Positions 3,423 to 22,086 of a stretch of DNA of 23,644 bases are shown in pieces. This DNA is from a virus. The notes beneath the pieces are model-generated. The model did not search any database and was not told where the DNA came from. It saw nothing but the letters and a program-made list of their open reading frames with translations. Position 1 is the stretch's first letter. The number at the start of each line of letters is the position of its first letter. The stretch lies in the IMG/VR virus record IMGVR_UViG_3300025684_000844, positions 1 to 23,644 of that record. One strand, 5' to 3'. A program made the position numbers and the translations under genes.

Positions 3423-5447
3423 TTATTTTTCTGTTACAATAATCTTATCACTTCCTTTGTTTACTTTGAACGTGTATTTTGTTCCTTCAACAATTCCTTT
3501 CTTAAGAACCTCCTCAGAGATGAAATCTTCTAAGTAGTCTTGAATTGCTCTTCGAATTGGTCTCGCTCCGAATTTAGAATCATATCCTCGTTCAGAAATC
3601 AAATCAATGATTGATGGTCCGAAGTTGATGTTATACCCTCTATCAACCAAACGTTTTGTTAACTTATTAAGTTCTAACTTAACAATTTGTGATACATTTT
3701 CTTTTTCTAATACTTTGAAGATAATGATATCATCTAAACGGTTTAAGAACTCAGGTGCGAATTGGTTTTTAAGTGCCTTTTGAATAATCCCTTTGGTCAT
3801 CTCTTCACGTTGAGCCGATGCTGAATCTGTTGAGAATCCTACACCCGTACCAAAATCTTGAAGTTTACGTGCTCCAACATTAGAAGTCATAATAATCAGG
3901 GTATTCTTAAAGTTAATCTTACGACCCAAACCATCAGTAAGGTGACCTTCGTCTAAAACCTGTAGAAGAATATTGAAGACATCTTTATGTGCTTTTTCAA
4001 TCTCATCAAAAAGGATTACTGAGTATGGTTTATTTTTAACCTGTTCTGTTAGTTGACCACCTTCGTCGTGTCCAATGTATCCTGGAGGAGAACCTACTAA
4101 ACGAGATACTGAGTGTTTCTCCATTAGTTCAGACATATCCACTCTAATCATTGCTGATTCATCACCAAATATTTCACGAGCTAATGTTTTTGCTAAGTGT
4201 GTTTTACCAACACCTGTTGACCCTAAGAAGATGAACGAACCGATTGGTCTGTTTGGTTCTTTAATACCTACACGATTTCTTCTAATTGCCTTAGAAATTT
4301 TTGTTACTGCTTCGTCCTGACCGATTACATTACTTTTTAGATTTTCCTCTAATGAAAGTAGTGATTTAGACTCGTCACTATCTAATCGAGAGATTGGAAT
4401 CTTAGTCATATCAGATACGATTTCATAAACATCGTCTTCCATAATCTTAGTACGGTCTTCGTTTTGTTTACGTTCCCACTCTTCCTTCTCGTTGTTTAAC
4501 TTATTAAGAAGTTTCTTTTCTTGGTCTCTTAGTTCAGCGGCTATCTCGTAGTTTTGGTTCTTAACTACATCCAACTTCTTCTTTTTAATTTCCTGTACGT
4601 CTTCTTTAAGTTTCTCAATAAACTCAGGGAGTTTAACCTCAACTTGTGCCTTAGCACCTACCTCATCTAAGATATCAATTGCTTTGTCAGGAAACTCACG
4701 GTCAGTGATATACCTTTCTGCCAATACAACACATGCGTTAAGTGATTCGTCTGTGTACTCAACTTTGTGGTGGTCCTCATATTTCCCTTTAACGTTGTTA
4801 AGGATAATTAAGGTCTCTTCCATTGAAGTTGCGTCAACCATTACTTTTTGGAATCTACGTTCTAATGCTCCGTCTTTTTCGATGTTTTCACGGTACTCAT
4901 CTAAAGTCGTTGCTCCAATACATTGAATCTCACCTCTTGAAAGTGCTGGTTTAATGATGTTGGATGCGTCTAATGACCCTGAAGAGTTACCTGTACCGAT
5001 AATGGTGTGAATCTCATCAATGAATACAATTACATTATCATTGTCTTGAAGTTCCTCTAAAATAGCTTTTAGTCTTTCTTCAAATTGACCACGATACTTT
5101 GTACCCGCAACAATAGATGTTAAATCTAATGAAACGATACGTTTATCTGCCAAATTCTTAGGACAATTCCCTTCGTGTATCATTATTGCCAATCCTTCAA
5201 CTAACGCAGTTTTACCACAACCTGGCTCACCAATAATGATAGGGTTGTTTTTCTTACGTCTTGATAGGATTTGAGCTACTCTTCGTATTTCTAAATCTCG
5301 ACCAATGACAGGGTCAATCTTACCCATCTCAGCCAACTTAATAAGGTCTCTCGAAAAATTATCAAGTACGGGTGTACGTGAATCTGTCTTTTGTTTTTTC
5401 ATCGGTAACTTTCTACCTCCACCTTGTTCTTCGAACTCAAAATTCAT
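3423..5447 (-). CDS. clpC: ClpC-type AAA+ unfoldase lacking the N-terminal domain
   Basis: This 674-residue Hsp100 protein has two AAA+ modules. D1 has Walker A GEPGCGKT (73-80), Walker B VFIDEI (141-146) and the ERRF arginine motif near 196-199. D2 has Walker A GSTGVGKT (409-416), Walker B ILFDEI (478-483) and NRLDD near 569. A short UVR-like coiled middle segment (about 291-326) marks ClpC or ClpE rather than ClpB, which has a long middle domain. VGF at 536-538 sits where ClpP-docking tripeptides occur, so pairing with host ClpP is plausible. The usual N domain of about 150 residues, which binds adaptors and substrates in bacterial ClpC, is absent; only about 25 residues precede the D1 lead-in TPVLDNF. 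The start at 5447 follows a host-type promoter by about 30 bases, so the N domain is not simply mis-annotated. It is transcribed divergently from dnaK. The family call is certain and the role in infection is inferred. Confidence 0.95.
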   Translation of the reverse strand: MNFEFEEQGGGRKLPMKKQKTDSRTPVLDNFSRDLIKLAEMGKIDPVIGRDLEIRRVAQILSRRKKNNPIIIGEPGCGKTALVEGLAIMIHEGNCPKNLADKRIVSLDLTSIVAGTKYRGQFEERLKAILEELQDNDNVIVFIDEIHTIIGTGNSSGSLDASNIIKPALSRGEIQCIGATTLDEYRENIEKDGALERRFQKVMVDATSMEETLIILNNVKGKYEDHHKVEYTDESLNACVVLAERYITDREFPDKAIDILDEVGAKAQVEVKLPEFIEKLKEDVQEIKKKKLDVVKNQNYEIAAELRDQEKKLLNKLNNEKEEWERKQNEDRTKIMEDDVYEIVSDMTKIPISRLDSDESKSLLSLEENLKSNVIGQDEAVTKISKAIRRNRVGIKEPNRPIGSFIFLGSTGVGKTHLAKTLAREIFGDESAMIRVDMSELMEKHSVSRLVGSPPGYIGHDEGGQLTEQVKNKPYSVILFDEIEKAHKDVFNILLQVLDEGHLTDGLGRKINFKNTLIIMTSNVGARKLQDFGTGVGFSTDSASAQREEMTKGIIQKALKNQFAPEFLNRLDDIIIFKVLEKENVSQIVKLELNKLTKRLVDRGYNINFGPSIIDLISERGYDSKFGARPIRRAIQDYLEDFISEEVLKKGIVEGTKYTFKVNKGSDKIIVTEK

Positions 5448-5479
5448 ATATAATCTATTTTTAGTTTATTACTTTAACA

Positions 5480-5510
5480 CAAATATACGACCATTTATCA
5501 TAAAAAACAA
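5480..5510 (-). promoter_or_regulatory. Bacteroidota-type promoter of clpC
   Basis: On the - strand, TTG (5510-5508), 20 bases and TATATTTG (5487-5480) match TTG / TAnnTTTG. The expected transcript start is about 25-30 bases before the start codon at 5447. A second -7-like box on the same strand, TATCTTTG (5609-5602), has no convincing -33 partner. Confidence 0.6.
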
Positions 5511-5652: not shown

Positions 5653-5684
5653 TTTGGTCATTTAAAAAATAATGTTTACTTTTG
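5653..5684 (+). promoter_or_regulatory. Bacteroidota-type promoter of dnaK
   Basis: TTTG (5653-5656), a 20-base spacer and TACTTTTG (5677-5684) match the TTTG / TAnnTTTG consensus of the Bacteroidota primary sigma factor. The start codon is at 5720, giving a leader of roughly 30 bases. This suggests transcription by unmodified host RNA polymerase, probably early. Confidence 0.65.
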
Positions 5685-5719
5685 TATCGATAAATAAATT
5701 ATAAACAAATAAAATTAAT

Positions 5720-7668: not shown

Positions 7669-7929
7669 ATGGCAATAATTTCAGAAAAAATTAGTGGGAA
7701 GAACATTTTGGTATTAATCGAATCTTCAAATTTAAAGTCGGCAGAATACCACACTGACGATAAAACCTTAACGGTTGAATTTAAAAATGGTGTGAAGTAC
7801 GAGTACGAAGCAGTACCATGGAATCTGTTTACTAAATTTAGAATGACAGAATCTCAGGGTAGTTTCTTTAATAAAAACATTGCTCGTTCTTTTGAGTATA
7901 CAAAAATAGAAGAAGATGAAGAAGGATAG
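7669..7929 (+). CDS. KTSC-domain protein
   Basis: A small protein of 86 residues with the KTSC-domain pattern. A strand pair resembles LKSAEYHTDDKTLTVEF, followed by NGVKYEYEAVPWNLF and a closing SQGSFFNKNIARSF. The domain is common as a small stand-alone protein in bacteria and phages, and its molecular role is not established to my knowledge. The gene is first after a late-type box. Its end overlaps the next gene by 14 bases, so the two are probably translated together. No signal peptide or membrane segment is visible, and the C-terminus is acidic. Confidence 0.7.
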   Translation: MAIISEKISGKNILVLIESSNLKSAEYHTDDKTLTVEFKNGVKYEYEAVPWNLFTKFRMTESQGSFFNKNIARSFEYTKIEEDEEG

Positions 7930-12955: not shown

Positions 12956-12963
12956 TATTTATA
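12956..12963 (+). promoter_or_regulatory. Putative late promoter box TATTTATA
   Basis: An exact TATTTATA ends only 4 bases before the ATG at 12968. If it acts as a -10 element, the transcript would start at or just inside the coding region, making it leaderless or nearly so. Confidence 0.5.
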
Positions 12964-12967
12964 TTAT

Positions 12968-13651
12968 ATGAGAATACTTTACGCACAACACTTAGACCTT
13001 AGTCTTAGGGCAGGATTTAACAGATTTTTTAATAGGGAGGTTAAGCAAGATATTATCGATATGACAAGAGTGTCGATAAAATCAACGCTAAAATTCTATA
13101 GTGATATTCATTTATATGTAGACATTGATAGTTATCAGTACTTTGATGACTTACCTGTGACTCTTCATGAACTTAAGACTCTTCCTGAGATATTTTGTGG
13201 TGCTAAATTAGAGGTCCTTAAAGACCAAAAAGATTTAGATTTCATATGGGTCGACCCTGATATATTTATTTCATCACCTTTTGATATTGATTACACTAAA
13301 TCATTTATGGTGGATAAATCCACTAAATTAGATGATATGTATTATGAGAGGTTATCTTACTTCTCTAAAGAGTATCCTAAGTATGAAATGGTGGGTGATT
13401 GGTTAAATAGTGGGTTATTATGGTTTAGAGATGCCGAGGTAATGGAGTACCATATTAAACTATATGAGGAACTATTAACACTCAGTAATGACGCACGTAT
13501 AGTGGAAAGTTGGAATATATCTCATTGTGGTAAAAAATTTGGTTATGGTAAGTTTAATCATACCAAAACACAATACCTTCACTTTGATGGATACAAAAAA
13601 TTCTTTGATGTAAGTAAGAATATGATAAAAGGATTAGAAAAATTATTATAA
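12968..13651 (+). CDS. GT-A-type glycosyltransferase-like protein
   Basis: A 227-residue protein resembling small nucleotide-sugar transferases. It has a metal-binding DxD motif in WVDPDIF (D96, D98), followed by the acceptor-side motif NSGLLWFRD (147-155), which is frequent in GT-A enzymes, and a closing HFDGYKK. The predicted reaction is sugar transfer from a nucleotide-sugar; donor and acceptor are unknown. The frame is open back to a TTG at 12953, but the ATG at 12968 is preferred because the earlier one would lie before the promoter box. Three bases separate it from the aminotransferase gene, and both precede the terminase in one unit. It could act on virion proteins, DNA bases or host surface glycans. 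Confident about fold, not about substrate. Confidence 0.65.
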   Translation: MRILYAQHLDLSLRAGFNRFFNREVKQDIIDMTRVSIKSTLKFYSDIHLYVDIDSYQYFDDLPVTLHELKTLPEIFCGAKLEVLKDQKDLDFIWVDPDIFISSPFDIDYTKSFMVDKSTKLDDMYYERLSYFSKEYPKYEMVGDWLNSGLLWFRDAEVMEYHIKLYEELLTLSNDARIVESWNISHCGKKFGYGKFNHTKTQYLHFDGYKKFFDVSKNMIKGLEKLL

Positions 13652-13654
13652 AAA

Positions 13655-14806
13655 ATGAAAGATATTATACCATTATTTAAAGTATTTATGTCTCCAACGG
13701 CAAAACATGAGGTTTCTAAAGTGTTGGATTCAGGATACATTGGGCAAGGACCTAAAGTTGAAGAATTTGAATCTTTAATTTCCGACAGGTTTGGTAATGA
13801 TAAGTTTGTTACGGTCAATAGTGGAACCAGTGGGTTACATTTGGCTTTACATCTTTTAAAGAAACCAATGGACAAACAAAATTGGCCAGGTGTTGTAGAT
13901 GGTGATGAGGTTTTAACCACTGCACTGACATGTACCGCAACAAATTTCCCTATAATCGCCAATGGATTACATATTAAGTGGGTCGATATTAATCCGAAAA
14001 CATTAAATATGGATTTGGATGACTTAATTTCTAAATTAAGTCCTAAGACAAAAATTATTATGGCAGTTCATTGGGGTGGATATCCTAATGATTTAAACGA
14101 ATTAAAGAAAGTTCAAGAAATATGTTTTAACCTTTATGGTTTTAGACCTATGATAATTGAAGACGCAGCCCATTCATTTGGTAGTGAGTACGATGGAAAG
14201 TATATTGGTAATCATGATAACATTGTGGTTTATTCGTTCCAAGCAATTAAACACTTAACCACTGGTGACGGTGGTGGTATTTTTTTCCCTAATGATGAAT
14301 TATATAAAAGAGCGAAACTGTTGAGGTGGTACGGCATTGATAGGGAGGAAAACAAAAAAGATTTTAGATGTGAAGAAGATATTGTTGAATGGGGGTTTAA
14401 ATTTCATATGAATGATATTAATGCCACTATCGGTATTGAAAATTTAAAACATATTGATGGTATAATCGAGACTCATATAGACAATTCGAATTATTACGAT
14501 AATAACTTAAAAGACGTTGAAGGTGTAACACTTTTAGAGAGAGAAGACGGGTTTAAACCATCTTTTTGGATTTATTCTATGATTGTTGACGATAGAGACG
14601 GTTTTTATAAGTGGATGAAGGAATGTAACATTATGGTCTCTCAAGTTCATGAACGTAACGATAAACACACTACAGTGAGTCAATATAGAACTACACTACC
14701 CGTATTAGATGATACAATAGGTAAGGTAGTATCAATACCAAATGGTTGGTGGGTTACGAAAGAACAAAGAGAGTATATTGTAAATTGTATAAAAAAAGGT
14801 TGGTAA
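13655..14806 (+). CDS. DegT/DnrJ/EryC1-type sugar aminotransferase
   Basis: A full-length (383-residue) PLP enzyme of the DegT/DnrJ/EryC1/StrS family, which makes amino sugars from keto-sugar nucleotides. Visible landmarks are the N-terminal LDSGYIGQGPKVEEFE, the cofactor-phosphate region TVNSGTSGLHLAL (53-65), IIEDAAHSFG with D170 pairing to the pyridine ring, and SFQAIKHLTTGDGG with K199 as the Schiff-base lysine. WGFKFHMNDINATIG and a C-terminal substrate region follow. No essential residue is missing. It lies directly behind a glycosyltransferase-like gene, so together they could make and attach an amino sugar. Its stop codon overlaps the terminase ATG (TAATG), which suggests coupled translation. 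The family is certain; the exact sugar cannot be told. Confidence 0.92.
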   Translation: MKDIIPLFKVFMSPTAKHEVSKVLDSGYIGQGPKVEEFESLISDRFGNDKFVTVNSGTSGLHLALHLLKKPMDKQNWPGVVDGDEVLTTALTCTATNFPIIANGLHIKWVDINPKTLNMDLDDLISKLSPKTKIIMAVHWGGYPNDLNELKKVQEICFNLYGFRPMIIEDAAHSFGSEYDGKYIGNHDNIVVYSFQAIKHLTTGDGGGIFFPNDELYKRAKLLRWYGIDREENKKDFRCEEDIVEWGFKFHMNDINATIGIENLKHIDGIIETHIDNSNYYDNNLKDVEGVTLLEREDGFKPSFWIYSMIVDDRDGFYKWMKECNIMVSQVHERNDKHTTVSQYRTTLPVLDDTIGKVVSIPNGWWVTKEQREYIVNCIKKGW

Positions 14807-16572
14807 TGACTAAACAAGAATTAGCCGCAGAATATAGTAAATGTCTTAGGGACACTCCATACGCACTTAGAACGTATTTGGAGACCTATGATAATACACA
14901 ACAGATGTATGTACCTTTCGTACTTTTCCCTGACCAAGAGAAATTGATTAACGATTACGACACATATAATGAAAATTTGGCCTTAAAATATAGACAGGCG
15001 GGTGTTTCAACTGCAACGGCAGCATGGGCAAGTAAAAAACTACAGTTTGCCTCACCTAAGAGACCTGAAAAAATCCTAATCATTGCGAATAAGTTAGATA
15101 CCGCAAAGGAAATGTTAACTAAGGTTAGAGGATTCTTAAACCAATGGCCCGATTGGATTAATGTTGGATTCTCGAAGGACAAAGATTCTCAGTCACATTT
15201 TAGACTTAATAATAGTAGTGAGGTAAAGGCGGTTGCAACATCTATGGATGCCCTGAGGGGTTACACTCCTACAATACTAATATTTGATGAGGCGGCCTAC
15301 ATTGAAGCAGGTGACGACTTTTGGGCAGCCTGTATGGCATCGCTATCTACGGGTGGTAAGGTGATTGTGGTATCAACACCTAATGGGTTTGATAAAATCT
15401 ATTACGAGATTTACGCTCAGAGTCAGTCAGGTATGAATGATTTTAAAATCACTGAAATGGTGTGGTACAAAGACCCTAGATTTACAAAGGATTTAGTATG
15501 GGTAAAATGTAAGGACATCATTCATTATATGTTAAATAGAGAGCAGTATGAGGATTCTGACGTGTTATTAAAAAACAACAATCAGGATGAGTTTAGTCAG
15601 TTAATGAAGGACGGATATAAACCATATTCAGGATGGTTTGAGCAAATGTCTAAAAAATTAAAATACGACAGACGTAAGATATCACAGGAATTAGAGAATA
15701 ACTTTTTAGGTTCAGGAGATAATGTTATTCCTGCGGATACTATTGAACGTATTAAGAATACGATGATTGAGGAACCTAAAGAAAAATATATGGCAGGACA
15801 ATTATGGTTATGGAAAGAACCGATTAAGGGTCACCGATATATTATGGGGGTTGATGTATCTCGTGGAGATAGTGAAGATTTCTCATCAATAACAATTATA
15901 GATTTTGACACGAGAGAACAGGTAGTCGAATATTTAGGAAAAATACCACCAGATGAATTGGCGGATGTTTGTTTTAAGTGGGGAACTATGTACAGTGCGT
16001 TTACTGTTGTCGATATCACTGGTGGTATGGGAGTTGCGACCGTTAGAAAACTACAGGAATTAGGATATAAAGATTTATATACTGACGGTGTCAATGCATT
16101 TGATAAGTGGTCGTGGAATCCAAAGGCTCAGGAAAAGATGCCGGGATTATCTTTTAACTCTAAAAGGACACAAATAGTTGCGTCTTTTGAAGAGGCATTA
16201 AGACATAATTTCGTTGTAAGGTCATCTAGGTTAGTTAATGAAATGAATACATTCGTTTATATTAATGGAAAGGCCGACCATATGAAAGGACAACACGATG
16301 ATTTAATTATGGCGATAGCGATGTGTATTTATGTTGGGGAATTTTCTTTTTCGTTACTTAAAGCGTCAGAAGAAAGTACTAAAGCGTTATTAGAAGGTTG
16401 GACCGTAACTGAGAGGGAAAAGATTCCTGGAGGAATATTCTCTCCTACATCATCACCGTATGACCCGTTAAGGGGATTACAGAATAATGGTAACAGAAGA
16501 AATAATGTTGCAACACAACAAGATTATCAGGATTTTTCTTGGCTTATGAAGTCGAGAAGAAGAAAAAGTTAA
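14806..16572 (+). CDS. Terminase large subunit, T4 gp17-like
   Basis: This 588-residue packaging motor has an ATPase and a nuclease domain. The start at 14806 is chosen because it overlaps the upstream stop; 20 further in-frame residues upstream lie within the aminotransferase gene. The Walker A region is deviant: KYRQAGVST (R63-T69) has no lysine in the GK[ST] position. Walker B is ILIFDEAAYIE (D161, E162) and the coupling motif is VVSTPNGF. The RNase H-like nuclease shows its acidic residues: D350 in GVDVSRGD, D403 in VVDITGG, and D498/D499 in QHDDLIMA. It should cut concatemeric DNA and translocate it through the portal encoded next. No small terminase is recognised in the window. Its promoter is probably the shared box at 12956, so packaging and sugar genes would be co-expressed. 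Confidence 0.95.
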   Translation: MTKQELAAEYSKCLRDTPYALRTYLETYDNTQQMYVPFVLFPDQEKLINDYDTYNENLALKYRQAGVSTATAAWASKKLQFASPKRPEKILIIANKLDTAKEMLTKVRGFLNQWPDWINVGFSKDKDSQSHFRLNNSSEVKAVATSMDALRGYTPTILIFDEAAYIEAGDDFWAACMASLSTGGKVIVVSTPNGFDKIYYEIYAQSQSGMNDFKITEMVWYKDPRFTKDLVWVKCKDIIHYMLNREQYEDSDVLLKNNNQDEFSQLMKDGYKPYSGWFEQMSKKLKYDRRKISQELENNFLGSGDNVIPADTIERIKNTMIEEPKEKYMAGQLWLWKEPIKGHRYIMGVDVSRGDSEDFSSITIIDFDTREQVVEYLGKIPPDELADVCFKWGTMYSAFTVVDITGGMGVATVRKLQELGYKDLYTDGVNAFDKWSWNPKAQEKMPGLSFNSKRTQIVASFEEALRHNFVVRSSRLVNEMNTFVYINGKADHMKGQHDDLIMAIAMCIYVGEFSFSLLKASEESTKALLEGWTVTEREKIPGGIFSPTSSPYDPLRGLQNNGNRRNNVATQQDYQDFSWLMKSRRRKS

Positions 16573-16613: not shown

Positions 16614-16621
16614 TATTTATA
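16614..16621 (+). promoter_or_regulatory. Putative late promoter box TATTTATA
   Basis: An exact TATTTATA, followed by TAGA, lies 7 bases before the portal start at 16629. The expected leader would be very short. Confidence 0.58.
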
Positions 16622-16628
16622 TAGAACT

Positions 16629-18470
16629 ATGGCAGAGCAAAAGTATACAATCTATCAAAGATTAGGAGGATTATTTAATGGGGTTCAAGGTGGAACACCT
16701 TTAAGTGACCCTACGCCTACATATAACTTTGATAGAAAAGAATTATTACGTACTGACAATAAAGAGGAGTACGAATTAGAAAAGTTACAGGCTCAGCAGT
16801 CAATGTACCTTACAGGTCAATGGAAAAAAGTTGATAGTGAGTTGTATCAGAAAGCGGTTTACCACGAACCAAATAGAATGGCGGGGTATTACGATTATGA
16901 ATCTATGGAGTTCACTCCTGAGATATCTGCCGCGTTAGACATCTACGCTGAAGAAGCAACTACTATGTCAGAACAGGGGTATATGTTAAACATATATTCA
17001 GAGAGTAAAAGAATTAAATCAATTTTAGGTGATTTATTCAACAACATATTAGATATCGACACTAACTTACCAATGTGGACAAGAAATACGTGTAAGTATG
17101 GTGATAATCTTTTATACCTTAAATTAGACCCTAAGAAGGGTATTATTGGAGCAAATCAATTACCAAACTTAGAGATAGAAAGAGTAGAGAAAGGAATGCA
17201 CATTAGTGGTTCTCACGGTAATACTGCTGATTCGGCAGAGGCAAGAGAAACTAAGTACGTTTGGAAAGAAAAGATGTTAGAGTTTAATGTATGGGAAGTT
17301 GCTCACTTTAGATTATTAGGTGACGATAGAAAATTACCGTACGGTACATCTATGTTAGAAAAAGCAAGACGTATTTGGAAACAATTAGTTTTGGCTGAAG
17401 ATGCGATGTTAATCTACAGAACTTCGAGAGCACCTGAAAGAAGGGTGTTTAAAGTATTTGTGGGAAATATGGACGACAAAGATGTTGACCAGTATGTAAA
17501 CAGAATTGCGAATAAGTTTAAACGTGATAACGTAGTAGACCCTATGAATGGTAATGTCGACCAAAGATATAACCAAATGGCGGTTGACCAAGATTACTTT
17601 ATTCCTGTTAGAGACCCTAACGCACCTAACCCTATTGATACACTACCTGGAGCTCAGAACTTATCTGAGATTGCAGATATCGAGTACATCCAAAAGAAGT
17701 TATTAGCGGCACTTAGAATCCCTAAAGCATTCTTAGGTTTTGAGGACGTAGTTGCTGATGGTAAGAATTTATCATTACAGGATATTAGATTCGCAAGAAC
17801 AATCAATAGAATTCAAAAGGCAATGATTCAGGAACTGAATAAGATTGCTATTATACACCTATACATGTTAGGTTTAGAGGATGAGTTAAACAACTTTACT
17901 TTAGGTCTTACAAATCCATCAACACAATCTGAATTACTTAAGGTTGAGGCATGGAAGGAAAAAATATTACTATATAAGGACGCGGTTGGTGACCCTGGTA
18001 ATGGTATTTCTGCAGTTTCACATACGTGGGCTAAGAAAACTATTTTAGGTATGTCAGATGAGGAAGTTAAGTTAGACTTACAACAACAACGATTCGAAAA
18101 GGCCATTGCTACTGAATTAGAAAATACCGCAAACGTAATTAAGAAAACGGGAGTATTCACAAACTTAGATAACCTATACGGAGAACCTGAATCAGAAGAA
18201 ACTGAAGAAGGTGGTGATGGTATGGATTCTGAATCTGATGGTGGTGATATGGGTGGTATGCCACCTGAAGGTGATGTTGGTGATTTAGGAGGTGACTTAG
18301 ATTCTGGCGGTGATATGGAAGAATTAGGTGAGTCATCATATAATGACTTATCGGTAATATTAGAGAATAAAGATTTCGGTAAACCTTCTACGTTAGACCT
18401 TTCTAAAGGACAGAAGGAAATTGCTGAAATGGAAAATACACTTAAAAAGATGTTAGGCGAAAGCAATTAA
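16629..18470 (+). CDS. Portal protein, T4 gp20-like
   Basis: A 613-residue portal of the T4 family, forming the dodecameric ring at the head vertex through which DNA is packaged. Typical stretches are MEFTPEISAALDIYAEEAT near 97-115, NTCKYGDNLLYLKLDP near 156-171, SRAPERRVFKVFVGNM near 268, and LPGAQNLSEIADIEYIQKKL near 340-359 followed by FLGFEDVVADG. T4 gp20 is about 524 residues; the excess here is mainly a C-terminal acidic Gly/Asp/Glu/Met tail (about 515-570, for example GGDMGGMPPEGD) and a final helical segment ending KKMLGESN. The tail recalls the acidic stretches of the 8737 gene and the scaffold, and might contact basic proteins or DNA in the prohead. It follows the terminase directly; sheath and tube genes that lie between them in T4 are absent here. 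Confidence 0.95.
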   Translation: MAEQKYTIYQRLGGLFNGVQGGTPLSDPTPTYNFDRKELLRTDNKEEYELEKLQAQQSMYLTGQWKKVDSELYQKAVYHEPNRMAGYYDYESMEFTPEISAALDIYAEEATTMSEQGYMLNIYSESKRIKSILGDLFNNILDIDTNLPMWTRNTCKYGDNLLYLKLDPKKGIIGANQLPNLEIERVEKGMHISGSHGNTADSAEARETKYVWKEKMLEFNVWEVAHFRLLGDDRKLPYGTSMLEKARRIWKQLVLAEDAMLIYRTSRAPERRVFKVFVGNMDDKDVDQYVNRIANKFKRDNVVDPMNGNVDQRYNQMAVDQDYFIPVRDPNAPNPIDTLPGAQNLSEIADIEYIQKKLLAALRIPKAFLGFEDVVADGKNLSLQDIRFARTINRIQKAMIQELNKIAIIHLYMLGLEDELNNFTLGLTNPSTQSELLKVEAWKEKILLYKDAVGDPGNGISAVSHTWAKKTILGMSDEEVKLDLQQQRFEKAIATELENTANVIKKTGVFTNLDNLYGEPESEETEEGGDGMDSESDGGDMGGMPPEGDVGDLGGDLDSGGDMEELGESSYNDLSVILENKDFGKPSTLDLSKGQKEIAEMENTLKKMLGESN

Positions 18471-18506: not shown

Positions 18507-19235
18507 ATGAACACCTTAGGGAAATTAAGAAATCAAGTCTACACAAAGTTAGCTGAATCATATACTAATAAGTCTGAATTCAAAAGAACATTGAATATGT
18601 TCATGTCAATACTAAATGAAAATACTAATCTTAAGAAAGTATTTAACATTTATTCTGACATCGAAAATAAGACAATCGAGAATAAAGAAATTGCTAGTGA
18701 GTTCATCATTGAAGCCGTTAATGAAATTAAAGATTTAATGAATACTGAATCTTATAAAAATGGTTTAACTAAACTTAATACTACCTTTGGTGATGTTGTC
18801 ACTGAGGATACTGATTTCTCTAACAACTTAGACACGTTAGTTCATAAGAATGGTTACGATACTTTAGTTGAAAGAATCGAATCTAAAAAATACCTAATCA
18901 ATAAATTAACTACTGAGAAAGTGGTTAGTGAGTCTATGACCGCAGTTACACCTTCAATTTTGGTGAGTTTATTAACCACTAAATTTAACGATAAGTTTGA
19001 TGTAATGAGTGAGTCTGAAAAAGAAAGATTTAAAAGATATACTACGTTAACCTCTACGGAGATTTCTGAAAGTATAGACACACTTAAGTCTGAAATAACT
19101 GAAACAATTACTCCATTAAAAGATAATAGCGATTTAGCTTCATTGATTTCCGAAGTGGAAAGTGAAGTTAATAATTCGAAAAATGACTTAAGTTCTTTAG
19201 TAAGATTAGAAGAGTTAAAAGAAAACTTAGTTTAA
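18507..19235 (+). CDS. Helical protein in the prohead-core position
   Basis: This 242-residue, almost entirely helical and highly charged protein has no cysteine or catalytic-looking motif. It starts MNTLGKLRNQVYTKLAESY and has stretches such as FNIYSDIENKTIENKEIA and long E/K/S-rich helices to the end. I cannot name a family. In T4, the small prohead core proteins gp67 and gp68 lie between portal and protease, the position this gene occupies, so a core or scaffolding role is a fair guess. [ILV]-x-E sequences such as KLAE and ILNE could be protease targets. It has its own late-type box. Its stop codon overlaps that of the convergent bS21 gene by 4 bases, so transcripts of the two genes are complementary at their ends. 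Confidence 0.7.
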   Translation: MNTLGKLRNQVYTKLAESYTNKSEFKRTLNMFMSILNENTNLKKVFNIYSDIENKTIENKEIASEFIIEAVNEIKDLMNTESYKNGLTKLNTTFGDVVTEDTDFSNNLDTLVHKNGYDTLVERIESKKYLINKLTTEKVVSESMTAVTPSILVSLLTTKFNDKFDVMSESEKERFKRYTTLTSTEISESIDTLKSEITETITPLKDNSDLASLISEVESEVNNSKNDLSSLVRLEELKENLV

Positions 19236-19426
19236 TTATTTTCTAAGTCGTTCTTTTTCTGAATATAAATTGCTTTAGATTTTTCTCTTCTTTTTGTTGC
19301 TGATGGTTTAGTGTATTGTTTTCTATCTCTAAGTGATTGTAACTGCTTAACATTTCTTACTTTTCTTTTATATCTCTTAAGCATACTCTCAATAGATTCA
19401 TTTTTCTTAGGTTTAATTATTAACAT
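19232..19426 (-). CDS. rpsU: Ribosomal protein bS21 homologue
   Basis: A 64-residue protein with the bS21 pattern throughout: MLII start, NESIESMLKRYKRK, LRDRKQYTKPS and a basic helical tail with AIYIQKK. bS21 sits on the small ribosomal subunit near the 3' end of 16S rRNA. In Flavobacterium, bS21 helps cover the anti-Shine-Dalgarno sequence, and as I recall a tyrosine at position 54 is involved; this protein has Y54. Phage-encoded bS21 is known from other large phages and is thought to exchange with the host protein. It is the only - strand gene in the head cluster and has its own late-type box, so it may be meant to bias translation late in infection. No Shine-Dalgarno-like sequence precedes its start (the bases before ATG are AACAATAT). 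The family call is strong; the effect on the ribosome is inferred. Confidence 0.93.
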   Translation of the reverse strand: MLIIKPKKNESIESMLKRYKRKVRNVKQLQSLRDRKQYTKPSATKRREKSKAIYIQKKNDLENN

Positions 19427-19461
19427 ATATTGTTTTTTAGATTTATGGAAGTTTATTCTAA

Positions 19462-19469
19462 TATAAATA
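19462..19469 (-). promoter_or_regulatory. Putative late promoter box TATTTATA for bS21
   Basis: On the - strand this reads TATTTATA followed by TTAG, 35 bases before the bS21 start at 19426. It is the only box on the - strand and points towards the only - strand gene in this region, which supports the motif being directional. Confidence 0.6.
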
Positions 19470-19584
19470 TACGAAAATTATCTAAGTATTAGACACTTAT
19501 ATTGTTTTATTTTTGACTCATCGTATTGTGTTTACTATATTATCAATAATAGTCACAATAAACAAAAGAAAAGAATGAACATAT

Positions 19585-20022
19585 ATGAAGTCAGGGAAAT
19601 ACATCGATTTAGATGTAAACGATAATTTTAAGTGTGGTTACGGAACCGTAGATTCTAAAAATTTAAAATCAATATACACTAAAATCTCGTGTTGGATTGT
19701 ACCAACAATAAGTACTGAAAATTGGTCCCCCGTTATAGGAGGACTTAAAAGAAAGATATCAAGTAAAATAAACGAATCACTTAAATCTAATCCTAATTTT
19801 AAACACGACAGATATATCGTAGATTTAGATATTCGGGCAAGTGGACTTGAAAGAGGTAAAAAATCATATATGAATTGTGAAATCACACTATTCACAAATG
19901 GTAGTCATGAAATAAAAGAAGACCCATTCAAAGGTAATATTAGTAATTTAATTAGTAGTGTTATAGATGAATCGGTTGTTAAGTATGACAAATTCTCGTA
20001 TCATAAAAATAAAAGAGGGTAA
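19585..20022 (+). CDS. Unknown small phage protein
   Basis: I do not recognise this protein of 145 residues. It is neither acidic nor repetitive: MKSGKYIDLDVNDNFKCGYG at the start, then CWIVPTISTENW, a basic helix (GLKRKISSKINESLK), and an alternating segment RYIVDLDIRASGLERGKKSY with MNCEITLFTNG, which looks like paired beta strands. The C-terminus is basic. No box of the late type lies in front; a -7-like TATTTTTG at 19508-19515 has no clear -33 partner. An ATG ten bases earlier (19575) is out of frame and short. The stop codon lies in the loop of a terminator hairpin, so the gene ends its own unit. Position between a ribosomal protein and the prohead protease gives no functional clue. Confidence 0.68.
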   Translation: MKSGKYIDLDVNDNFKCGYGTVDSKNLKSIYTKISCWIVPTISTENWSPVIGGLKRKISSKINESLKSNPNFKHDRYIVDLDIRASGLERGKKSYMNCEITLFTNGSHEIKEDPFKGNISNLISSVIDESVVKYDKFSYHKNKRG

Positions 20023-20073: not shown

Positions 20074-20081
20074 TATTTATA
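20074..20081 (+). promoter_or_regulatory. Putative late promoter box TATTTATA
   Basis: An exact TATTTATA lies 22 bases before the prohead protease start at 20104. It is the only one of the eight not followed by T (GTATAG follows). Confidence 0.58.
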
Positions 20082-20103: not shown

Positions 20104-20793
20104 ATGAAAATATTAAAACCAACAGAAACGAATACAAAAGGAATCCTAATCGAATACGATGCAGGTCATATTTCCCCTAATGATAATAAAGAGATTATCA
20201 GAGAGATGAAGGAGATGGACAAAAAGGGTGACTTTATTATGTATGCCGTTTTACAGAAATATGATACCCCAAATAAGAATGGTAGAATATATGGTGAAAG
20301 AATCTTAAAAAGAGAAACAGAAAATTACAAAAAACTTATAGAACAAGGAAGAGCATTAGGTGAGTTAAATCACCCTGAGACTTCTTTAGTAGATTTAGAA
20401 AGAACATCACATAGAATTACTGAGTGTTGGTGGGACGGTAAAATCTTAATGGGGAAAGTTGAGTTACTTACTTCAGAGGCGTTTCGTACAACAGGACAGA
20501 TAACCTGTATGGGTGATATCGCGGCTAACCTATTACTACACGGTGTTGTGTTAGGTATCTCATCAAGAGGTGTCGGTTCTTTAAAGAAAACAGGAGAACA
20601 TAACGAGGTACAGGATGACTTTGAAATGGTATGTTTTGATTTAGTATCATCACCATCTACACCAGGTGCTTATCTATTCCAAGAAGAAGGAGATAGAGAG
20701 AAGTACTCAGAATCTATTGATAGTGACGAACCAACAATGGATTCTAAGACTGCTGACCTAATGAAGAAATTTAATTCTTTTTTGGGAAAATAG
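20104..20793 (+). CDS. Prohead maturation protease, T4 gp21-like
   Basis: A 229-residue serine protease of the T4 gp21 type, which degrades the scaffold and trims capsid proteins inside the prohead. The His motif is GELNHPE (H90), the nucleophile motif is GISSRGVGSL (S153 or S154), and the family's FDLVSSPSTPGA follows near 178-188, with D179 as a possible third residue. The stretch NKNGRIYGERIL (58-68) is also typical. Length and order are normal with no sign of damage. The gene stands upstream of the scaffold and capsid genes as in T4, with its own late-type box and a hairpin after it. Likely substrates in this window are the scaffold, the capsid N-terminus and possibly the acidic proteins at 8737-12885. 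Confidence 0.93.
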   Translation: MKILKPTETNTKGILIEYDAGHISPNDNKEIIREMKEMDKKGDFIMYAVLQKYDTPNKNGRIYGERILKRETENYKKLIEQGRALGELNHPETSLVDLERTSHRITECWWDGKILMGKVELLTSEAFRTTGQITCMGDIAANLLLHGVVLGISSRGVGSLKKTGEHNEVQDDFEMVCFDLVSSPSTPGAYLFQEEGDREKYSESIDSDEPTMDSKTADLMKKFNSFLGK

Positions 20794-20846: not shown

Positions 20847-20854
20847 TATTTATA
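20847..20854 (+). promoter_or_regulatory. Putative late promoter box TATTTATA for scaffold and capsid
   Basis: An exact TATTTATA, followed by TACA, lies 32 bases before the scaffold start at 20887. No box lies in the 34 bases before the capsid gene, so capsid expression probably depends on this one. Confidence 0.6.
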
Positions 20855-20886: not shown

Positions 20887-22086
20887 ATGGCAAAATCAAT
20901 TTTAGAAGAAGCATTACTTCAGGTAACACAACTTGAAGAAGCGGTAAAAAAGAACGCAAAAGAAATACTTGCTAACACAATGAAGCAAGAAATTGACGAA
21001 CTTGTAAGAGAATCTATGGAAGAACCTCAGGAAGAAGAAGAAGCAATTGCTGAAACTTCGGACGTTGAAATGGAAGAGTCTACGGACGAAACTGAAATCG
21101 ACGAACAACTTGAGGATTCGGACGAAGATGCAGACGAAGATGAAGACGAGTCTGATGACGACGAAGAAGTAATGGATGTTGACTCGGAAGAGGAAGACGA
21201 ACTTGACTTAGACGTTGAAATGAAAGATATGTCTTTTGATATGGATGACATCGAAATGCCATCGTTAGAATTACCATCACTTGATGATGAAGAGGAAGAC
21301 GAAGTCATTGACATGACAGGGGCATCTGACGAAGAGATTCTAAAAGTTTTCAAAGCAATGGGCGATGAAGACGGAATAATCGTATCACAAGACGAGGAAG
21401 GAACTGTCCACTTAGAGGACGGTGATGACGAGTACAGAATCGAAATGAACGAATCGGAAGAAGAAGATACTGAAGAAGTAGCTGAAGAAGAAGAGGTTGT
21501 TTACGAGATTGAATTGGACGAAGAAGAAACTGAAGAGGTTGAAATCGAGGAATCTGAAGAGATTGAAATCGAAGAAACTGAAGAAGAAGAAACTGAAGTC
21601 GAAGAAGGTGATATGGAGGAAGCATCAAGAACTCACGCGGCAGACGCTAGAGTACCTTCAAATCAAGGTAAAAAATATCAAGCAGGTCGTAAAGACTTGT
21701 CTGAAGATGTTGAAGCTTTAAAGAATAAGAATGTTGAGTTAACTGAAGCATTAAAAGTATTTAGAAATAAGTTAAACGAAGTTGGAGTATTCAACGCGAA
21801 CTTAGCTTACGCAACTAGACTGTTTACAGAACACACAACAACTAAAACTGAGAAGTTAAATATCTTAAAAAGATTTGACAGTATTGAAACATTAAAGGAA
21901 TCGAAATCTTTATACAATACTATCAAGAATGAGTTAGCAGGTTCAGATAATAAATTAACTGAAACTGTTGTTAATAAAATTTCATCATCACCAAAATCTG
22001 GTTCATCAGAGAAATTAGTGGAGTCTAAAACATATGAGAACCCACAAATTATCAGAATCAAAGAGATGATGGGAGTTTTAAAATAA
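20887..22086 (+). CDS. Prohead scaffold protein, T4 gp22-like
   Basis: A 399-residue protein in the gp22 position between protease and capsid genes. Residues 1-45 are helical (MAKSILEEALLQVTQLEEAV). Residues about 45-245 are a very long acidic stretch of E, D, S and V with few other residues. The C-terminal part (about 255-399) is folded or coiled-coil, with LSEDVEALKNKNVELTEALK and LNEVGVFNANLAYATRLFTE, the stretch I most associate with gp22-type scaffolds. It should form the internal core and be destroyed by the prohead protease. T4 gp22 is about 269 residues, so this one is extended by the acidic region. In that region the codons differ from the rest (more CTT for Leu and TCG for Ser than its neighbours). 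The role call rests on position plus the C-terminal similarity. Confidence 0.85.
   Translation: MAKSILEEALLQVTQLEEAVKKNAKEILANTMKQEIDELVRESMEEPQEEEEAIAETSDVEMEESTDETEIDEQLEDSDEDADEDEDESDDDEEVMDVDSEEEDELDLDVEMKDMSFDMDDIEMPSLELPSLDDEEEDEVIDMTGASDEEILKVFKAMGDEDGIIVSQDEEGTVHLEDGDDEYRIEMNESEEEDTEEVAEEEEVVYEIELDEEETEEVEIEESEEIEIEETEEEETEVEEGDMEEASRTHAADARVPSNQGKKYQAGRKDLSEDVEALKNKNVELTEALKVFRNKLNEVGVFNANLAYATRLFTEHTTTKTEKLNILKRFDSIETLKESKSLYNTIKNELAGSDNKLTETVVNKISSSPKSGSSEKLVESKTYENPQIIRIKEMMGVLK
21521..21608 (+). repeat. Glu-rich repeat region in the scaffold gene
   Basis: Short in-frame repeats of GAA/GAG with interspersed ATC, ACT and GTT encode units like EEVEIEESEEIEIEE. The pattern is irregular, so it reads as low-complexity acidic coding sequence rather than a recent tandem array. 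Confidence 0.6.

Follow-up and report, generated by a model that had tools for sequence, protein, structure and literature searches.

bS21 is the ribosomal protein most commonly encoded by phages. The closest described systems come from work on phage genomes and on the ribosome of Flavobacterium johnsoniae. Chen et al. reported that bS21 of phages related to the one studied here is transcribed with the late genes, proposed that the phage protein substitutes into host ribosomes, and noted divergence in the hinge region between helices 1 and 2 of the protein (Chen et al. 2022, PMC9723584). The criterion for a place in their clades a-e would be a similarity of the terminase large subunit (TerL) to those clades of at least about 70%, and the main text of that study makes no mention of promoters, gene leaders or rpsU autoregulation (PMC9723584). 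In F. johnsoniae, loss of bS21 or the Y54A substitution frees the anti-Shine-Dalgarno (anti-SD) sequence and raises SD-dependent translation of rpsU, while initiation on SD-less mRNAs drops when bS21 is lost (McNutt et al. 2023, PMC9976891). Bacteroidota ribosomes that contain bS21 are already blind to SD sequences (PMC9976891). Finally, bS21 of the Pelagibacter phage HTVC008M enters Escherichia coli ribosomes in vivo (Mizuno et al. 2019, PMC6375957, as cited in PMC9723584).

Results

The stretch analysed here, hereafter the window, is a virus record of 23,644 bases, and counts given for the window cover that whole stretch. Its reverse strand carries at positions 19232-19426 a complete open reading frame of 64 aa with an ATG start and a TAA stop. 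The product matches the Pfam family Ribosomal_S21 (PF01165) at 48.5 bits (E 7e-13), which clears the curated cut-off of 27 bits, as well as PHROG 21469 (ribosomal protein S21, E 2e-8). These matches confirmed the complete bS21 homologue that a first-pass annotation had described as lying antisense within a head gene cluster, and the surrounding TerL, portal and prohead protease genes bear out that location. On one side lie, all on the forward strand, the genes for a T4-like TerL recognized by Pfam and PHROG (14746-16572, with a true start probably downstream of 14746), a T4-like portal protein (gp20, 16629-18470) and a conserved hypothetical protein of 242 aa (18507-19235); the latter gene is convergent with bS21, and the two stop codons overlap. 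On the other side, also on the forward strand, lie a conserved hypothetical gene of 145 aa named CN (19585-20022), which is divergent from bS21, a T4-like prohead core protease gene (Peptidase S77, 20104-20793) and a gene for an acidic scaffold-like protein (20887-22086). DnaK, a Clp-type ATPase and a protein with a lysozyme domain are encoded elsewhere in the window. The phage appears to infect Bacteroidota.

The order TerL, portal, 242-aa gene, reversed bS21, 145-aa gene, protease and scaffold is kept over the length of the contig in each of 26 IMG/VR loci. A search with the CN protein retrieved 80 contigs, which overlap with these 26 loci, and bS21 was found in the same place and on the same strand in 59 of them. 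Conversely, bS21 was not detected at the site in 18 contigs that carry both portal and CN, these contigs being fragments. Therefore, the site is fixed but its occupation by bS21 is optional, and the genes on either side are core genes. The bS21-less contigs examined had at the site either a short gap, in several cases with a terminator, or a small gene resembling those of membrane proteins. In five of them (L366, L376, L378, L381 and L384), a hairpin-plus-T terminator lies in the short gap and a box-like sequence precedes the next gene. CN, a core head-cluster gene that also occurs without bS21, was considered as a dedicated partner of bS21 and rejected as not specific, as it is found in at least 571 viral contigs and in the 18 contigs mentioned above. 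The structural model of CN is confident (pLDDT 87); the one fold that it clearly matches is that of an uncharacterized phage protein, and matches in the PDB are weak. In another phage clade (L018, L142, L196 and L205), the bS21 gene starts just after the apparent 3' end of a tRNA gene, and head-cluster genes are absent nearby.

Residues 1-60 of the window bS21 align without gaps to F. johnsoniae bS21 (7jil chain z, phmmer), which places the tyrosine of its AIYIQ motif on Tyr54, the host contact residue to which the first-pass annotation had assigned it. Furthermore, the C-terminal part facing the 16S tail is not truncated. By pattern match, a tyrosine in an AIYIQ-type motif occurs in 68 of 72 distinct viral bS21 proteins; among the other four, L210 carries its tyrosine in a variant of the motif, and the remaining three belong to another type. 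In the alignment, the hinge between helices 1 and 2 reads KVRNVKQ in the window bS21, whereas it reads KFDKTGT in the Flavobacterium host protein. Lys-Gln occupies the positions of the host Gly-Thr in nearly all phage clades, as part of a KVRNVKQ / TKQ signature. If the phage protein has an effect of its own, for instance by competing with host bS21 or by choosing among mRNAs, this altered hinge is its likeliest seat. The dN/dS ratio of phage bS21, in the pairs that allow dS to be estimated, is 0.05-0.15, indicating that the protein is kept by purifying selection.

A tree built on 65 columns, which are few, set the phage and host bS21 proteins fully apart, as Chen et al. also found (PMC9723584). 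A second chromosomal bS21, adjoining an rpoD-like sigma-factor gene, was found in two bacterial genomes (L291:7952-8146, reverse strand; L288:9655-9849, forward strand). These second copies have a phage-like hinge (KRKHRNVK) and no extended SD (-1.5 and -9.8 kcal/mol), and they exist alongside a normal rpsU that has a strong SD. In a third bacterial genome there is just one related copy, which lacks an SD (L290:9316-9510, forward strand). The second copies were considered as a source of phage bS21 on account of their similar hinge; the tree, which fully separates the phage and host sets, shows no direct descent.

The bS21 gene has its own late-type box, as had been claimed from the sequence alone. 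The box, TATTTATA, occupies positions 19462-19469 on the same strand, 35 nt upstream of the bS21 ATG, and is conserved in relatives. All eight copies in the window sit 4-41 nt upstream of a start codon on the same strand, a placement for which 2.6% of positions qualify (p about 2e-13). The genes that bear it are those starting at 7669, 8737 and about 12,968, the portal gene (box at 16614-16621), the 242-aa gene, the protease gene (box at 20074-20081), the scaffold-like gene (box at 20847-20854) and bS21. Across 14 relatives, no other block of the intergenic region is as well conserved as the bS21 box (GTATATTTAT). Furthermore, the box is present in 39 of 76 leaders of Tyr-type bS21 proteins, compared to a mean of 3.7 and a maximum of 10 in shuffled sequences. 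At the portal gene (16614-16629) and at a glycosyltransferase-like gene (12956-12968), the box ends 4-7 nt before the start codon, and these two genes may be expressed as leaderless late mRNAs.

Other genes of the window have promoters of other kinds. A sigma70-like TTGACT-N17-TATATT (19513-19541, forward strand) lies upstream of CN, with TTGAC conserved in most relatives. Unlike the head genes, dnaK and the clp ATPase gene are preceded by a host-type TTG-N20-TAnnTTTG (5654-5719 and 5447-5510), in which TAnnTTTG is a published Bacteroides promoter motif. Since the box marks the head genes and bS21 whereas dnaK, clp and CN have host-type or sigma70-like promoters, the arrangement points to two or more classes of expression, the head genes and bS21 being in one. 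The genes sharing the box, together with the published RNA data on related phages, lead us to infer that bS21 belongs to the late class.

Pairing of gene leaders was computed against the Bacteroidota 16S tail ACACCUCCUUUCU, and the tail GGAACACCTCCTTTCT was confirmed in two Flavobacterium genomes. The 22 nt before the bS21 ATG (19427-19448, reverse strand) lack G altogether, and their pairing energy with the 16S tail is +1.6 kcal/mol, revealing no SD before the gene. Nor was an SD found at a non-standard distance, the leader being almost free of G. The alternative anti-SD UCUCA of Chryseobacterium was ruled out for this leader, as its complement UGAGA is absent from these G-less 22 nt. In contrast, pairing energies for the 80 Flavobacterium-type rpsU leaders lay between -19.0 and -20.9 kcal/mol without exception. 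The window gene lacks the extended SD (below -13 kcal/mol) of autoregulated Bacteroidota rpsU. A first viral set of 44 distinct bS21 leaders ranged from +2.0 to -4.3 kcal/mol, and an enlarged set of 79 from -4.8 to +2.0 kcal/mol, with none below -6 kcal/mol. Across the phylum, 33 of 70 sampled host rpsU copies fell below -13 kcal/mol, in agreement with the report that a strong rpsU SD is common but not universal (PMC9976891). An exception came from outside the viral set: a 735-kb uncultured giant phage (L327, LR756501.1) has a Tyr-type bS21 preceded by AGGAGG (-12.1 kcal/mol). In this phage, 7 of 54 nearby genes also pass -9 kcal/mol.

The same computation was applied to 101 genes of the window and 16 syntenic relatives. 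Their starts pair more weakly with the 16S tail than the upstream mock region does (median -1.0 vs -2.5 kcal/mol, p 6e-5), and none of the 101 falls below -8 kcal/mol. T4 genes, analysed by the same method as a positive control, had medians of -5.6 to -5.7 kcal/mol vs -2.6 to -2.9 for the mock region. The TerL start at 14806 (-7.7 kcal/mol) was considered as an SD gene and rejected, being probably an artefact of choosing an internal ATG. SD-lessness is therefore the rule in these phages. The first-pass annotation was right that bS21 has no SD at its own start, and the idea that its leader is of the phage's own type is supported. Two of the three outcomes that it named as refuting were looked for and did not occur: Tyr54 aligns with the host contact residue, and strong SDs are absent from the other phage genes sampled. 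Since SD-lessness is general, the missing SD of bS21 need not be an adaptation; by itself it is no evidence of selection for escape from host control, and it may be the phage default.

Discussion

On balance, we consider it somewhat more likely than not that the window encodes a late-expressed bS21 of the Bacteroidota-phage type that is translated without an SD, keeps ribosomes SD-blind and stands outside the rpsU feedback loop. Phage late transcription through the TATTTATA box, which bS21 shares with the head genes, would produce the bS21 mRNA, and ribosomes would translate this mRNA, in common with the phage's other mRNAs, without the help of an SD, given a leader unable to pair. The protein would most likely enter host 30S subunits that lack or are losing bS21, where its Tyr54 would keep the 16S tail tucked away and hold the ribosomes in a state that translates SD-less phage mRNAs well. 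As the phage protein fills bS21-less subunits, translation of host rpsU would be expected to fall.

With an SD-less leader, synthesis of phage bS21 would not be tied to the host loop. The contrast with host rpsU leaders is so large that escape from the published loop can soundly be inferred. The earlier claim of escape is to that extent well motivated (PMC9976891), but an SD-less leader is also the phage-wide default. The companion claim that the protein resets SD use is unsupported: since SD blindness is already the condition of bS21-containing host ribosomes, the protein would maintain it, and resetting is the wrong word. Counting against the main reading, only 33 of the 70 rpsU leaders sampled across the phylum pass -13 kcal/mol; in a host without the feedback loop there would be nothing to escape. 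Further counts against it are the SD-bearing Tyr-type bS21 of the 735-kb phage and the many relatives, known from fragment contigs, without bS21 at the site.

A stronger version, which we hold to be rather unlikely, is that the SD-less late bS21 fills all bS21-less 30S subunits and thereby shuts off the SD-dependent host rpsU, so that ribosomes become loaded with the phage form and the host has no means of restoring its own bS21. If true, the phage would turn the host's own feedback loop against the host. What is at stake is whether phages can seize a population of ribosomes via a host regulatory loop, and the leader contrast turns this loose idea into a simple question: does phage bS21 lower rpsU expression in F. 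johnsoniae?

Alternatively, it is possible but rather unlikely that the phage protein simply replaces bS21 that is lost as host mRNA disappears, its SD-less leader being a default without regulatory meaning. Every sampled gene of these phages is SD-less, and ribosomes poor in bS21 initiate worse on SD-less mRNAs (PMC9976891), both of which agree with plain supply; the phage-specific hinge, with Lys-Gln in place of the Flavobacterium Gly-Thr in nearly all clades, would nevertheless be unneeded for it. That hinge is instead central to the proposal of Chen et al. that divergent residues make ribosomes prefer phage late mRNAs over those of the host. The conserved KVRNVKQ / TKQ signature, at positions whose divergence is reported in PMC9723584, fits this proposal. 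However, apart from A/T richness and the lack of an SD, the phage leaders share no obvious element, and host mRNAs are SD-less too, so that such ribosomes would have no clear feature to select by; we consider mRNA selection distinctly improbable. Location within the head cluster would suit a bS21 that is packaged in the virion, a possibility raised in PMC9723584, or one that acts on another RNA rather than on host ribosomes. Conservation of the ribosome-facing C-terminal residues, including Tyr54, speaks against such a role, which we regard as very improbable.

The gene type, its setting, the conservation of its Tyr54, its late expression and the idea of ribosome substitution are already published (PMC9723584). 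As in clades a-e of Chen et al., the window has a reverse-strand bS21 between two hypothetical genes in a TerL, portal and prohead protease cluster, which in those clades also comprises capsid genes; Tyr54, a predicted Bacteroidota host and chaperone, Clp and DegT-type genes in the genome are further points of likeness. The best-ranked match to the portal protein in the phage collection searched has 39.9% identity, and none exceeds 60%. Late transcription is a feature of the phages of Chen et al. (PMC9723584), to which the window adds a shared late-type box. Chen et al. did not find bS21_CN in two outgroups, whereas both bS21 neighbours described here also occur in bS21-less contigs. HTVC008M likewise encodes bS21, but it belongs with another host group that is without the Bacteroidota anti-SD pocket. 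In the papers searched, which cover part of the literature, no treatment of phage bS21 leaders was found, and the contrast between viral and host bS21 leaders appears to be unreported there. F. johnsoniae bS21 is of the same family and of similar length and shares Tyr54 with the window protein; its rpsU has an extended SD (computed at -19 to -21 kcal/mol), whereas the phage gene has none. McNutt et al. speculated that autoregulation counters phage bS21; silencing of rpsU by an SD-less late phage gene is the opposite prediction.
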